Positions 15,212 to 25,259 of a stretch of DNA of 39,738 bases are shown here, piece by piece. Positions within the stretch are counted from its first letter, which is position 1, and every line of letters begins with the position of its first letter. The stretch spans positions 1 to 39,738 of IMG/VR virus record IMGVR_UViG_3300031976_000267; one strand, 5' to 3'. The notes under the pieces were generated by a model. That model was given only the letters and a program-made list of their open reading frames with translations. It searched no databases and was not told where the DNA came from. This stretch comes from a virus. The translations under genes and the position numbers were made by a program.

Positions 15212-15268
15212 ATTAATAGTTGTTCTAACGCAAGTTAGAATTTGTTAACCAAAAGAAAGGAGAAAGAT

Positions 15269-15640
15269 ATGCAAACAGCAACATCTACATCTACCTCTGC
15301 AAAGAGAGTTCCTGCGAAAGCAGTAACAAAACCTTTGAGCAAAGCTAAAGTGACAGCAGTCCCGAAGCCTAGTTCAACAGGCAAAGGAGCTTCTAGAACT
15401 TTATATAAGTTCATAGGCAAAGTTCCTGAGTCTAAAGGTTTTACTCCGCAGATGAGAGCCTTGATCTTAACTGTTAGTGAAGCTAAAAAGAGTGATTTAG
15501 ACTCTGCTAGTTTTACAGCACAAGATCTAGTATCTCTTGCAGTGAAGCAAGGCAATCTGACTACAGGTCAAGACCCGCTTAGAATCTTTAGATTTTATGC
15601 GAAAAGACTTGTTGATGAAGGCTACTTCGCAAAGGTATAA
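15269..15640 (+). CDS. Winged-helix-like small protein, paralogue 1
   Basis: A 123-residue protein from ATG 15269, behind AGAAAGGAGAAAG. Residues 1-55 are a low-complexity Ser/Thr/Lys/Ala/Pro region; the rest (FTPQMRALILTVSEA, then DPLRIFRFYAKRLVDEGYFAKV) looks like a winged helix. The ending resembles that of 22980 (DIWAHYRKRLIEEKLITVS), and 23639 has a related layout. The gene is a single-gene unit with its own promoter, hairpin leader and terminator, so it is probably abundant and possibly a DNA-binding or nucleoid-like protein. Confidence 0.7.
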   Translation: MQTATSTSTSAKRVPAKAVTKPLSKAKVTAVPKPSSTGKGASRTLYKFIGKVPESKGFTPQMRALILTVSEAKKSDLDSASFTAQDLVSLAVKQGNLTTGQDPLRIFRFYAKRLVDEGYFAKV

Positions 15641-22116: not shown

Positions 22117-22254
22117 TACTAATATCTCTAATAAACTAATAGATTCGTTCTGTAAGTCTCTTGGTTACTCTATTCTTTGATTCTGCAAAACTAATAGAAT
22201 TCTATTACTCTATTAGAAACTATGGTAAGATTACCTAGAGGGCATGAGAAAACT
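22117..22254. repeat. Element B: right copy of the inverted intergenic element
   Basis: Read on the minus strand from 22254, it has the same four blocks as 386-512 in the same order, including the exact 18-mer (plus-strand AGAGGGCATGAGAAAACT at 22237-22254). Downstream of the 18-mer, both copies reach TTGTAATA after 27-28 nt. Here that leads toward terS at 22315. Confidence 0.75.
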
Positions 22255-22314
22255 ATTTATTTGATAATAAAACTAATATGATTGTAATAACTTTATGCGA
22301 AGCTCGGAGGTAGA

Positions 22315-22845
22315 ATGAAACAGCTGACATACACGTCATTAATGCCAACAGAAGATGGTAAAGGATTCATTGACGATAGTGGTAAGATTTGGCAGCCACT
22401 CAACTCTAAACAAAAGAAATTTTGTAAGGAGTACTTCAAAGGACAAACAGCTACTGAAGCCGCGATAAAAGCAGGGTATACGAAGGATCGCAAGGGTGCG
22501 AAGACACAGGGAAGTGTATTACTAAATCATAACCCAGTTGTAAAGAATTACTTGATCGACTTGGAAATCGCAGCTTCGGAAAGAGATGCAGTTTCCCTGG
22601 AAGCACACCTCTCTACTCTACACGACCTTAGAGAGGAGGCGAAGGACCAAGGTCAAATATCCGCAGCCATCACAGCCGAGGTCCATCGAGGGAAGGCAGG
22701 TGGACTCTACATCGATCGACGTGAAATATTAACAGCGAAAATCGATCTGATGTCCAAGGACGATATACTCGATCGACTCGAAAACCTTATTAAGAAAAGA
22801 ACTTTGGATGCAAAAGTTGTTGAAGGAGAGATAGCCGCGGACTAA
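22315..22845 (+). CDS. terS: Terminase small subunit
   Basis: A 176-residue protein. LNSKQKKFCKEYFKGQTATEAAIKAGYTKDRKGAKTQGSVLLNH (broken here for length: residues 29-50 and 51-72) is the helix-turn-helix DNA-recognition region of Terminase_2-type small subunits. Middle residues form an oligomerisation helix and the C-terminus (DDILDRLENLIKKRTLDAKVVEGE) would contact TerL. It is unusual that 3.8 kb separate it from terL. A GGAGG site precedes the ATG; element B lies upstream. Confidence 0.85.
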   Translation: MKQLTYTSLMPTEDGKGFIDDSGKIWQPLNSKQKKFCKEYFKGQTATEAAIKAGYTKDRKGAKTQGSVLLNHNPVVKNYLIDLEIAASERDAVSLEAHLSTLHDLREEAKDQGQISAAITAEVHRGKAGGLYIDRREILTAKIDLMSKDDILDRLENLIKKRTLDAKVVEGEIAAD

Positions 22846-22848
22846 GAC

Positions 22849-22860
22849 TCGTGCGAATCG
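22849..22860. repeat. Single copy of the TCGTGCGAATCG word
   Basis: These 12 nt recur exactly at 23452-23463 within the ATTCGTGCGAATCG repeat. The copy sits just after the terS stop and before the promoter at 22896, where a regulator could bind. Confidence 0.5.
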
Positions 22861-22895
22861 CTCCTGGTGGCATAATCCTGGACTCTTTTTAGTGC

Positions 22896-22929
22896 TTTAC
22901 TTTCGCTTGTTTGTAAGCAATAATATACT
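22896..22929 (+). promoter_or_regulatory. Repeated-type promoter before gene 22980
   Basis: AGTGCTTTACTTTCG carries -35 TTTACT (22896-22901). The -10 is less regular: AATAAT (22919-22924, 17-nt spacer) or TATACT (22924-22929, 22-nt spacer). The leader has the hairpin CTTAAATA-AAGGT-TATTTAAG (22933-22953), then AAAGAAAGGAGAA. Confidence 0.6.
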
Positions 22930-22979
22930 TATCTTAAATAAAGGTTATTTAAGAATTAACTAAAGAAAGGAGAATTATT

Positions 22980-23273
22980 ATGATAGATAAGAACTATCAA
23001 GCAGGAGCCCAAAGAGGGTCAATTAACTACGACGCAGTGATCACTTTGATCGCTACGCCAAAAGGAAAGTTCCCACCTCAAGCAGGGAAGATCATCGAAG
23101 CGTTAATCGCTGCGAAAGATCACACCATGACGGTGGGTGAGCTGATCGGCACTGACGGTTCGACCGAGAGTGCATTGGTCAAAGCGGGACTGCAAACAGT
23201 CCAAGAGCCGAATGACATTTGGGCTCATTATAGAAAACGCTTGATCGAGGAAAAGCTGATTACTGTCAGCTAA
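22980..23273 (+). CDS. Winged-helix-like small protein, paralogue 2
   Basis: A 97-residue protein. FPPQAGKIIEALIAAKDHTMTVGELIG and the C-terminal DIWAHYRKRLIEEKLITVS align by eye with FTPQMRALILTV and DPLRIFRFYAKRLVDEGYFAKV of gene 15269. It has the complete cassette (promoter, leader hairpin, ribosome site) and its own terminator, so it is a single-gene unit like 15269. Probably an abundant DNA-binding protein or transcription regulator. Confidence 0.7.
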   Translation: MIDKNYQAGAQRGSINYDAVITLIATPKGKFPPQAGKIIEALIAAKDHTMTVGELIGTDGSTESALVKAGLQTVQEPNDIWAHYRKRLIEEKLITVS

Positions 23274-23289
23274 CCACGGTTAACGAACG

Positions 23290-23312
23290 AGGGGACTTCG
23301 GTCCCCTTTTTT
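23290..23312 (+). terminator. Rho-independent terminator with UUCG loop
   Basis: AGGGGAC-TTCG-GTCCCCT (23290-23307) followed by a T run to 23312. Closes the unit of gene 22980. Confidence 0.9.
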
Positions 23313-23417
23313 GTGTCCGCTCTACTCTACGCTCTACTCTATCACTCAATCTACTCTATCACTCTATCCCTCACACTCTATCCCATTCCCTTCCCCTCTA
23401 CTCTATATATAATAAAT

Positions 23418-23504
23418 ACATTCGAGCGAATCGCCCAGAAAGAAAAAACATTCGTGCGAATCGGGTAAATAAAAAATAAAATCGCTAAAATCGTAAAAAT
23501 CGCT
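23418..23504. repeat. Iteron-like repeats, candidate origin or regulator site
   Basis: ACATTCGAGCGAATCG (23418-23433) and ACATTCGTGCGAATCG (23448-23463) are exactly 30 bp apart, each a near-palindrome ATTCG-N-GCGAAT-like. They are followed by AAAATCG at 23478, 23487 and 23496, a 9-bp period, and then an A/T-only stretch to about 23520. Direct repeats beside an AT-rich zone are typical of replication origins or repressor operators. Confidence 0.55.
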
Positions 23505-23638
23505 AATAAATAAATAATTAAATAAACGTATATATATGTATACAAGTAAAGTAGTTTATTGTTATACTAGGTTATTGATTAGGCAACTAGGCTACCTTAT
23601 CAATACTTAACTAACTAATAGCCTAAGAGGTATCCAAC

Positions 23639-24040
23639 ATGGATAACAAAGCAAAAGATAGATTAGCAGTCAAAACGGCTACTGCTAATGTAGATAAAAG
23701 AAAAGCCGATATAGATAACATTGCCCCTATTGGTAAAAGCGGTGGCGGTGTTGCTCAATCAATGGTCTTATCATTAACTGATAACGCCATGAATGATAGA
23801 GGTATTGCCCCTAGACAAGTACAACTTGTCTTAGCTTACCTTCATCTTTTAGGTGGTAAAGCTACAGTCAAGCAAATAGATGACTTTAGCGTAACTGCTG
23901 AGGATAGTATTGCATGGGTAACTGCTAGCGGTGATGCGTACGAACAAACCCCTAGTAAAATACTACGTACCTACATATCTAAAATGAAAGGTACTGATGC
24001 TTGGAACAAATCCAATGGTATCAAACCACTAGTTAGCTAA
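23639..24040 (+). CDS. Winged-helix-like small protein, paralogue 3
   Basis: A 133-residue protein. Its body APRQVQLVLAYLHLLGGKATVKQIDDFSV and SKILRTYISKMKGTDAW have the same layout as genes 15269 and 22980 (a PxQ helix, a helix-turn-helix-like centre, a basic final helix), with a weaker match. The N-terminal 45 residues are charged and then Gly-rich (IGKSGGGVAQSM). No good ribosome site is seen; AGAGG lies 12 nt upstream. It has a terminator of its own and sits between two C-rich tracts. Confidence 0.65.
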   Translation: MDNKAKDRLAVKTATANVDKRKADIDNIAPIGKSGGGVAQSMVLSLTDNAMNDRGIAPRQVQLVLAYLHLLGGKATVKQIDDFSVTAEDSIAWVTASGDAYEQTPSKILRTYISKMKGTDAWNKSNGIKPLVS

Positions 24041-24058
24041 CCTCTAGCTACCTTACCT

Positions 24059-24084
24059 AAGGGCTACATTCGTAGCCCTTTTTT
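24059..24084 (+). terminator. Rho-independent terminator after gene 23639
   Basis: AAGGGCTAC-ATTC-GTAGCCCTT (24059-24080) followed by TTTT. Confidence 0.9.
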
Positions 24085-24314
24085 ATGCCTACGATATAAC
24101 CTACCCCCTACACAACGCACACACATACACCATACACATAGGCTAGTCTTAACCCTAGCCCATAAGTATACGACCTACCTTACCTGCCCTTAGAACGCTC
24201 CACAGTAACCCCTATACCCCCCTTTTTAAGTTAGCCGCGGGTCCCACCCGCCCTCCCTTGGTGTTGCGTCCTTGATTGCAAGTACTTTACAAATAAGTCC
24301 CTGTGATAAAAATT

Positions 24315-24342
24315 TTGCGAAAAAATTTTTTACGATTATACT
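24315..24342 (+). promoter_or_regulatory. Promoter abutting gene 24349
   Basis: TTGCGA (24315-24320), a 16-nt A/T-rich spacer and TATACT (24337-24342) form a sigma70-like promoter. The ATG follows 6 nt after the -10, so the mRNA would begin at the start codon. Confidence 0.55.
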
Positions 24343-24348
24343 TTTGAG

Positions 24349-24876
24349 ATGGATTTGTTAGACGGTCTTACTAATTACATTATTTCGAAACAGGAAGGTG
24401 AGTTTCCTGGACCTTTACTCGTACAACCTGAAGTTAAAACTTCTCCTCGTGTTGATCGAATAAATGAGATTATGGAAGAACTTGCAGACCCAGATCAACC
24501 GATAGGACAATCTGCTGCACAACTTGATTTTTTAGAAAAACTAAGACAAGACGATAGAAAAAGATTTACTCCTAACTACATATTACAAAAAGATTATCAA
24601 AAAAGTCCGTATAGTTTCTTTTCAGAAGGTTACGACCCTGATATAAAAACAGACTTTAATCCTGAACTCGTTAATAAAGAATATAAAGATTTTATTAACT
24701 TCTTTCTAGAAAATGTTAAAAAACCAGAGTTCAACGATATTATCGGCTCTCAAACACTATCTCCGTTTGCACAAGAAATTATGCCTTCTGTTTTACAATA
24801 CGAAAAACAACACGACGGAACATACCCTAGAGATTTATTTGATCTGTTTCAAAACGTAGTAACAAAAGATGCGTAA
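24349..24876 (+). CDS. Hypothetical protein, probably leaderless
   Basis: A 175-residue acidic protein (MDLLDGLTNYIISKQEGEFPGPLL; PYSFFSEGYDPDIKTDFNPELV) with no recognised family. It precedes the spanin pair and packaging genes and may be a virion or lysis accessory. There is no ribosome site upstream; the -10 box ends 6 nt before the ATG. The next gene overlaps its stop by TAATG. Confidence 0.65.
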   Translation: MDLLDGLTNYIISKQEGEFPGPLLVQPEVKTSPRVDRINEIMEELADPDQPIGQSAAQLDFLEKLRQDDRKRFTPNYILQKDYQKSPYSFFSEGYDPDIKTDFNPELVNKEYKDFINFFLENVKKPEFNDIIGSQTLSPFAQEIMPSVLQYEKQHDGTYPRDLFDLFQNVVTKDA

Positions 24877-25259
24877 TGGGTTTTAAACTTAGCTTGGTTC
24901 TTGGAGGTCTATTGGCGGCATCTTTGGCGGGTTCGTGGTTCTTATTAGACCAGATATCCACGCTCAAAGGTAATCAGATAATCCTGGAATCAAAAATATC
25001 CGAGCAAAACGAATCCATCAAACAATACCTAGCAAAACAAGAACAGCTGTCCGCGAGTCTTGGTACGTTAGAAGCCGAAAAACAAAACGCACTTCGTGAA
25101 GTAAATAAATTAAGAAACACATTTGCTAAGCACGATCTTGATAACCTTGCACTAAACAAACCTAAACTTGTTGAGAAGATGGTTAACCGTGGTACTAAAC
25201 GAGTAATAGATAACCTTGTAGAGTTGACCACGGTCAGCGAGGAGGAGCCGAGTGGATGA
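24876..25259 (+). CDS. Inner-membrane spanin (Rz-like)
   Basis: A 127-residue protein with one N-terminal membrane span (LSLVLGGLLAASLAGSWFLL, about 4-23) and a long periplasmic coiled coil (ISTLKGNQIILESKISEQNESIKQY and onward). This is the form of the i-spanin, which with the outer-membrane partner fuses inner and outer membranes at lysis. The partner gene overlaps its end by 4 nt, a common arrangement. Implies a Gram-negative host. Confidence 0.75.
   Translation: MGFKLSLVLGGLLAASLAGSWFLLDQISTLKGNQIILESKISEQNESIKQYLAKQEQLSASLGTLEAEKQNALREVNKLRNTFAKHDLDNLALNKPKLVEKMVNRGTKRVIDNLVELTTVSEEEPSG

Follow-up and report, generated by a model that had tools for sequence, protein, structure and literature searches.

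What does a cluster of short repeats beside A/T-only DNA do in a phage genome: does it mark an origin of replication, or does it hold binding sites for a protein encoded next to it? The question arises from a locus in record IMGVR_UViG_3300031976_000267, which belongs to a marine phage group; the window, by which we mean the whole stretch analysed, spans the full 39,738 bases of that record and has no repeated ends. An earlier note on this DNA had called the repeats a candidate origin or operator cluster. Our comparison with related loci upholds the operator half of that proposal, in that palindromes stand before several promoters and track one type (type A) of the gene that follows them, and speaks against the origin half. 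Judging from sequence comparison, we consider it reasonably probable that the sites are regulatory and serve the hypervariable, winged-helix-like protein encoded by ORF 23639, which would lie in an insulated unit.

Genomic setting and the two flanking genes

The features of the window are collected in Table 1. The stop codon of the terminase small subunit (TerS) gene abuts the first palindromic site, and PHROGs matches include two spanin genes besides TerS. Judged by TerL, the nearest named phages are 023Pt_psg01, DSL-LC04 and the Pelagibacter phages HTVC027P and HTVC023P, all with less than 60% identity. The DNA from 22315 to 24400 matched no named phage, an Rfam search of 22200-25000 gave no match, and a search of the literature on the locus found no paper.

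Table 1. Coordinates of predicted and matched features in the window; a single number is the position given for the gene
Feature	Position	Strand	Basis or remark
Archaeo-eukaryotic-type primase gene	2328		Pfam
UvrD-like helicase gene	4423		Pfam
Family A DNA polymerase gene	10229		Pfam
TerS gene	22315..22845	+	phrog_51, E 3.9e-17; landmark
Palindromic site (a), ACTCGTGCGAAT	22847..22858	+	Exact match; touches TerS stop, ahead of ORF 22980 promoter
Sigma-70-like promoter of ORF 22980, TTTACT-17-AATAAT	22896..22924	+	Consensus scan, 9 of 12
ORF 22980 (gene 1), 97 aa, winged-helix-like	22980..23273	+	AlphaFold2 mean pLDDT 85.5
Gene 1 intrinsic terminator	23289..23308	+	Predicted
CTCTACTCTATC tract, C-rich, nearly G-free	23316..23405	+	Internal repeats; composition
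Palindromic site (b), ATTCGAGCGAAT	23420..23431	+	Exact match
Palindromic site (c), ATTCGTGCGAAT	23450..23461	+	30 bp after (b)
Three AATCG half-sites, 9 bp apart	23480..23502	+	In register with (b) and (c)
Sigma-70-like extended -10 promoter of ORF 23639, TATACA-18-TATACT	23539..23568	+	Consensus scan
ORF 23639 (gene 2, type A), 133 aa	23639..24040	+	AlphaFold2 mean pLDDT 82.6
Gene 2 intrinsic terminator	24059..24080	+	Predicted
Second C-rich, G-poor tract, after gene 2 terminator	24147..24224	+	32 C, 7 G; second-highest C-minus-G, + strand
TerL gene	26679		PHROGs
Portal gene	28232		PHROGs

In the AlphaFold2 models of both gene products, the elements run strand, helix, strand, helix, long loop, helix, strand (short and single-residue strands included), an order by which both read as winged-helix-like; in the gene 2 product the N-terminal region is variable, and residues 42-133 make up the well-predicted, winged-helix-like part. 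The earlier description of the repeats as lying between two winged-helix-like genes agrees with this predicted order, but matches in the PDB are weak: Foldseek returned nothing at E≤0.001 for either model, a second structural look at gene 2 gave a best Z of 5.3, too weak for a family name (with RctB domain 1, at Z 4.4, and the RecQ and FoxO winged helices as weak look-alikes further down), and a profile search against PDB sequences found nothing meaningful (best E, 0.2). Neither ORF has a match in PHROGs, and both, like ORF 15242, fall below the Pfam cut-off. No match to ORF 22980 was found in named phages, and a peptide-seeded scan of 84,980 bacterial and archaeal species, which reaches close relatives only, found no close relative of gene 2. 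Viral contigs hold 48 relatives of ORF 22980 and 22 of ORF 23639; a search with the gene 2 protein of one divergent locus, L217, found only its own contig.

Gene 2 comprises several families among the relatives. Genes 1 and 2 look like distant kin in sequence, and in some genomes the place of gene 2 is taken by a gene-1-like protein. ORF 15242 (15242-15640) is a distant relative of ORF 22980 (30-31% identity, E 0.003-0.004), so that this genome encodes two or more proteins of a winged-helix-like family that has no annotation; gene 2 also gives a weak match, with an internal stop, to the ORF 15242 place in record G003 (23%, E 3.7e-4). ORF 22980 itself was not found in G008, and no such ORF follows TerS in L194, L254, L263, L188 or L217. 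A separate observation is that gene 2 is hypervariable, near-identical flanks enclosing unrelated or partly swapped proteins (L022 versus L023, L044 versus L046); the interval from TerS to the spanins is likely a recombination hotspot.

Palindromic sites in the window and its relatives

The repeats listed in the earlier note are all present. Two ACATTCG-type repeats lie 30 bp apart (ACATTCGAGCGAATCG at 23418-23433 and ACATTCGTGCGAATCG at 23448-23463), the 12-nt partial copy TCGTGCGAATCG at 22849-22860 belongs to a larger ACTCGTGCGAATCG at 22847-22860, AAAATCG occurs three times with a 9-bp period (starts at 23478, 23487 and 23496), and A/T-only DNA follows at 23504-23526. Each 16-mer contains a perfect inverted repeat, ATTCG-NG-CGAAT, and the repeats are better termed palindromes, with the consensus AnTCGnnCGAnT, than iterons. 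Seven AWTCG half-sites lie on one strand (23420, 23429, 23450, 23459, 23480, 23489 and 23498); their spacings are 9, 21, 9, 21, 9 and 9, and the AAAATCG repeats thus share the 30-bp/9-bp register of the palindrome pair.

The repeats are real and well above chance expectation. Among 300 dinucleotide shuffles of the window, none had seven or more half-sites within 90 bp (the largest number was 4), none had an exact pair 30 bp apart, and none reached the four exact AnTCGnnCGAnT sites of the window, with three or more found in 3 of the 300. With up to 2 mismatches, ATTCGNGCGAATCG has 4 matches in the window against 0.62 expected; the AAAATCG unit alone is unremarkable (TAAAATCG, 3 matches against 2.67 expected). 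The fourth exact site, at 22767, falls within TerS and is probably incidental; the TerS-internal match was excluded from all site counts. Dyad sites at promoters in non-coding DNA, beyond chance, are what a regulator-operator module would be expected to show.

Across the 23 groups of relatives that are of type A or bear sites, AnTCGnnCGAnT occurs at 79 sites, which represent 20 distinct 15-mers; eight constant letters of the consensus were imposed by the search pattern, and degenerate sites are uncounted. An initial, looser pattern left the first two letters free, and in its listed hits the first was always A and the second variable. Among the AnTCGnnCGAnT sites all four bases occur as the second letter, the centre is TG, AG, GG, CG, GA or CA, and an invariant C trails the palindrome; all 20 distinct site sequences have it on the + strand. 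Since a CA-centred site is a TG-centred one read on the opposite strand, a palindrome is likelier than oriented direct repeats. The position of site (a) is matched in 15 of the 23 groups, and a CA-centred version lies one or two bases earlier in 6 further groups; in L017, the site adjoining TerS is not in the counts. The pair of sites is found in 21 of the 23 groups (30 bp apart in 16, 31 bp in 5) and is missing from L190 and L217. The AATCG half-sites are not conserved, the 21 pair-bearing groups having 3, 2 or 0 copies.

Sites accompany one type of gene 2

The comparison used the best 80 of 217 TerS relatives; 298 loci plus the window gave 149 sequences with TerS, which form 82 distinct groups, and sites outside TerS were counted over a range reaching up to 3.5 kb upstream and 2 kb downstream of the TerS stop. 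Sites occur in all 21 groups with a type-A gene 2 (2-5 sites each), the type-A pattern having been written after the site-bearing loci were seen, and in 0 of the 38 groups classed as having another gene, a few of which probably have a gene-1-like or other ORF and not a true gene 2. Another 23 groups are unclassed (contig ends, a gene-1-like protein only, or no ORF fitting the rule), among them L192 and L196, which have sites and end before gene 2 is complete. The sites go with one type of the putative regulator, over few independent events, since most type-A loci belong to one TerS lineage and many are near-copies. L243, which was not classed as type A, has a helix very like that of type A (YNQTPSKVLRTY) and no site, and counting it as type A would make the figure 21 of 22; L190 has a type-A gene 2 and no site ahead of that gene. 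When 31 chosen gene 2 proteins, many of them near-copies, are placed on a tree, the 18 with sites need 2 changes, compared to 10.2 with shuffled labels.

Lineage is a confounder of this association: TerS identity exceeds 92% in most type-A groups and is below 91% in the non-type-A groups, L020 apart. Two loci break the pattern and so argue against lineage alone. L020, with a TerS 98% identical and nearest TerS relatives that are of type A with sites, carries a gene 2 of another type and shows no site, its sequence reaching 1.7 kb upstream. Conversely, L217 has a distant TerS, and its eight nearest TerS relatives have no site and no known type-A gene (the nearest, L239, ends before gene 2); it carries a type-A-like gene 2, 45% identical, and two sites. 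The DNA just after TerS is common to L217 and L027, which has another gene 2 type, except for the insertion that makes the site in L217. Each of these two loci could also represent one block swap, with the sites merely carried along with gene 2.

The sites are confined as well. Nine records (495 kb) contain 31 exact matches, 7 of which are one stretch inside TerS; the other 24 of 24 lie between about 2.3 kb before the TerS stop and just past gene 2, and the reversed pattern gave 0 matches in the same records. Two of the records, G000 and G001, do not differ in the 1.15 kb over which they were compared, and two others, G006 and G007, lack both the sites and a type-A gene 2. G008 has five sites, a type-A gene 2 (69%) and no match to gene 1, which argues that the sites can be retained without gene 1, although the G008 record may be a fragment and gene 1 could lie outside it. 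A paired-site scan of viral contigs returned at least 119 stretches, with 117 new loci; among the matches listed, 7 of the 117 hold a TerS of the group, and the remaining 110, for which tblastn with five window proteins found no match, are, on that sequence comparison, probably chance occurrences. A second pattern, a site abutting a CT tract, found only L217. The TerL region of HTVC027P (L299) has no exact site, and that of 023Pt_psg01 (L300) has one, inside an annotated gene, as did 22 of 200 shuffles.

These distributions bear on a reading that we regard as unlikely but worth weighing, in which another factor (a host regulator or a different phage protein, for instance ORF 22980 or ORF 15242) binds and the sites are only linked to the type-A cassette. 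ORFs 22980 and 15242 are related, ORF 22980 is located between sites, and the sites lie near enough to gene 2 for one recombination block to move both. A host-factor regulon, however, would not be expected to be confined as the sites are in the nine records, or to be absent from all 38 other-gene groups, and the site-free records G006 and G007 do contain ORF 15242. ORF 22980 is disfavoured as the binder because G008, possibly a fragment, and L217 have sites without it. We favour the view that the repeats are operator-like sites, with the consensus AnTCGnnCGAnT, for a dimeric phage DNA-binding protein, most likely the product of ORF 23639.

The broader idea that each type of gene 2 has its own operator was unsupported when palindromes and shared k-mers were sought in chosen members: the GAATCC repeats of types C, G and H track the gene 2 type only imperfectly, and types D, F and B have little in common beyond CT-rich or promoter sequence. 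Separately, GAATCC/AAAATC repeats with a period of ∼9-10 bp lie between TerS and gene 2 in L032-L038, and in L043 only before gene 1.

Promoters, terminators and insulation

Upstream of the sites is a stop codon or a terminator, and downstream of them a promoter. The promoters are predicted, sigma-70-like hits being no commoner in the region than in shuffles (7 compared to 5.3), and the TTTACT-17 form of the gene 1 promoter is retained in L190, L193, L266, L010 and L200. With the transcription start taken as 12 bases past the first base of the -10 box, the centre of site (a) is at -78.5 relative to the gene 1 start in the window, L190, L193, L266 and L010 and at -77.5 in L200, a near-constant distance although gene 1 promoter sequences differ. 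A further site stands before an upstream unit in 10 of the 23 groups that are of type A or bear sites, a count limited by contigs too short to reach it, and is absent from the window. The unit lies 1.2-2.3 kb upstream and, in four loci inspected, stands at the head of different small genes; the centre of its site is at -59.5 to -61.5 in L190, L193, L266, L010 and L194. The centre of the gene 2 pair varies from -90 to -150 (window, L193, L266, L010, L194 and L254), and the gene 2 sites of L217 are at -99.5 and -207.5. The near-fixed distances may reflect common descent. Because the site centres are all upstream of the -35 element, upstream activation or DNA looping is likelier than promoter occlusion.

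Other elements were noticed around these promoters. A 5'-UTR hairpin with an AGG-type loop (TCTTAAATAAAGGTTATTTAAGA, CGCTAAAAAGGTTTTAGCG) lies between some promoters and the ribosome binding site, at 22932-22954 in the window, about 2930-2952 in L003 and about 3530-3555 in L064. A palindrome, TTGGTACCAA, occupies the -35/-10 spacer of many gene 1 promoters (L004, L020, L022-L026, L028-L031, L044-L048, L204, L206 and L207), other sequence being found there in most type-A phages; from its sequence and place it is a candidate second operator.

At the gene 1 terminator, GC-rich stems with a CTTCGG loop and compensatory changes (stem pairs include GGGGAC/GTCCCC and GGCGAC/GTCGCC) are found in 49 of the 82 groups, counted with a single pattern. 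Within the tract that follows, positions 23322-23399 hold 35 C, 1 G and 25 YC in 78 nt, and their C-minus-G value of 34 is the highest of any 78-nt window on the + strand, where the mean is -3.06 (sd 5.86); on the - strand the mean is +3.06 and values reach 27. By composition, the tract at 23316-23405 is probably a Rho utilisation (rut) site behind the intrinsic terminator, and the tract at 24147-24224 is probably another. A best 78-nt C-minus-G stretch of at least 21 (median, 28) is found in all 73 groups that extend 700 nt or more past TerS. As an observation on the phage group, CTCTACTCTATC / CCGTCCGTC tracts follow stop codons and terminators, and their sequence changes while the C-rich, G-poor composition stays. 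Gene 2 would be insulated on both sides, each time by an intrinsic terminator plus a C-rich tract with probable Rho-dependent termination.

It is conceivable, if rather doubtful, that the sites take part in this insulation in a roadblock or stoperator-like manner, the bound protein stalling read-through RNA polymerase for release by Rho. Between the C-rich tract and the start of the pair (b, c) there are 14 bp, a terminator-like stem and T run precede the upstream-unit sites of L003, L004, L018 and L064, and the trailing C keeps to the + strand. Site (a) in the window, in contrast, follows a stop codon without a C-rich tract, and insulation does not appear to need the sites, because the C-rich, G-poor stretch is present in all 73 groups and the sites only with type A.

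Origin and packaging

That the locus is an iteron-type origin, with three 30-bp units beside an AT-rich zone opened by an initiator encoded next to them, seems to us improbable. There is indeed a direct-repeat array beside AT-rich DNA, the seven same-strand AWTCG half-sites in their 30/9-bp register adjoining the A/T-only stretch 23504-23526; an initiator and its iterons would also covary, and RctB domain 1, one of the weak structural look-alikes of gene 2, comes from a replication initiator. Yet the half-site array is lost in many type-A groups, the pair is absent in L190 and L217, the repeats are missing from L020 (in the part covered) and from the 38 other-gene groups, and the same sites stand singly at other promoters, scattered over as much as 2.3 kb. 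The GC-skew profile that the earlier note had proposed as a check likewise gives the origin no help: the skew does not switch sign from one side of the locus to the other, as it is positive to the left and to the right, dips locally to -0.16, and is negative only at 22.5-25.5 kb and, slightly, at 1-1000 and 29.5-30.5 kb. Some origins show no GC-skew switch. The primase, helicase and polymerase genes, at 2-12 kb, are weak evidence against an origin here.

Packaging (pac or cos) or recombination sites near the terminase genes are very improbable: the location beside TerS would suit them, and direct ANTCG repeats within the site could mediate gain and loss, but the sites are absent from L020 despite its 98% identical TerS and stand ahead of several promoters at near-fixed distances. 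GANTC methylation of the CcrM/GcrA kind was considered and rejected; the sites contain GANTC, but the motif is neither scarce nor enriched in the window, with 104 occurrences compared to the 107-130 expected by the model.

Comparison with known systems

As described in PMC6550527, the stoperators of cluster A mycobacteriophages are 13-14 bp long, have no dyad symmetry, number 20-30 per genome in lysogen-forming phages and are oriented with transcription, and the repressor and its matched sites diverge between phage types. The likeness lies in a phage protein, here a predicted DNA binder, whose matched sites recur at several points of the genome, and in the single orientation that most sites keep; the difference is that many asymmetric sites spread over the genome were not found here, the sites being palindromic, 2-5 per locus and in one neighbourhood. 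A tyrosine integrase (PF00589) was found in 0 of the 9 records, which may be fragments, compared to 14 of 14 control genomes.

In lambdoid-type immunity regions, an exchangeable cassette combines a regulator gene with its own operators. Here too there is an exchangeable regulator cassette with putative operators, but neither sites overlapping promoters nor signs of lysogeny were seen, and the regulator is of a different, unannotated family. Iteron origins share with the locus in-register short repeats beside an AT-rich stretch and a winged-helix-like gene, and differ in that the array here is unconserved, the same sites are scattered before promoters, and a close relative lacks them. Morons are single phage genes with their own promoter and terminator. 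Gene 2 resembles them in having its own predicted promoter and terminator and in being highly variable between near-identical flanks; unlike a moron, it is part of a winged-helix-like family of which the genome seems to contain other members, and its place is occupied in most of the relatives seen.

A proposed mechanism and its meaning

In the mechanism that we favour, the type-A protein would bind the palindromes through its winged-helix-like domain, two dimers would sit on about the same face of the DNA at the 30-bp pair, and the AATCG half-sites would offer extra, weak contacts. The type-A protein would control its own gene, gene 1 and, in the groups that have the additional site, the upstream unit. 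A bolder extension, to which we give little credence, is that the region between the terminase genes is an exchangeable "identity" cassette, in which double terminators insulate a hypervariable winged-helix regulator and its matched sites before neighbouring phage promoters come and go with it, perhaps in a strictly virulent marine group. If this were true, co-infecting phages that share a type would act on one another's promoters, an effect resembling superinfection immunity without lysogeny.

The locus carries a warning that a repeat cluster beside AT-rich DNA need not be a replication origin. If the operator reading is right, it would give a protein family that matches nothing in PHROGs or Pfam a first regulator-site pair whose consensus is defined, and would offer a simple system for testing the joint exchange of a phage regulator and its sites. 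It would also suggest why the locus is so variable, namely, that co-infecting phages may compete through shared and unshared sites.
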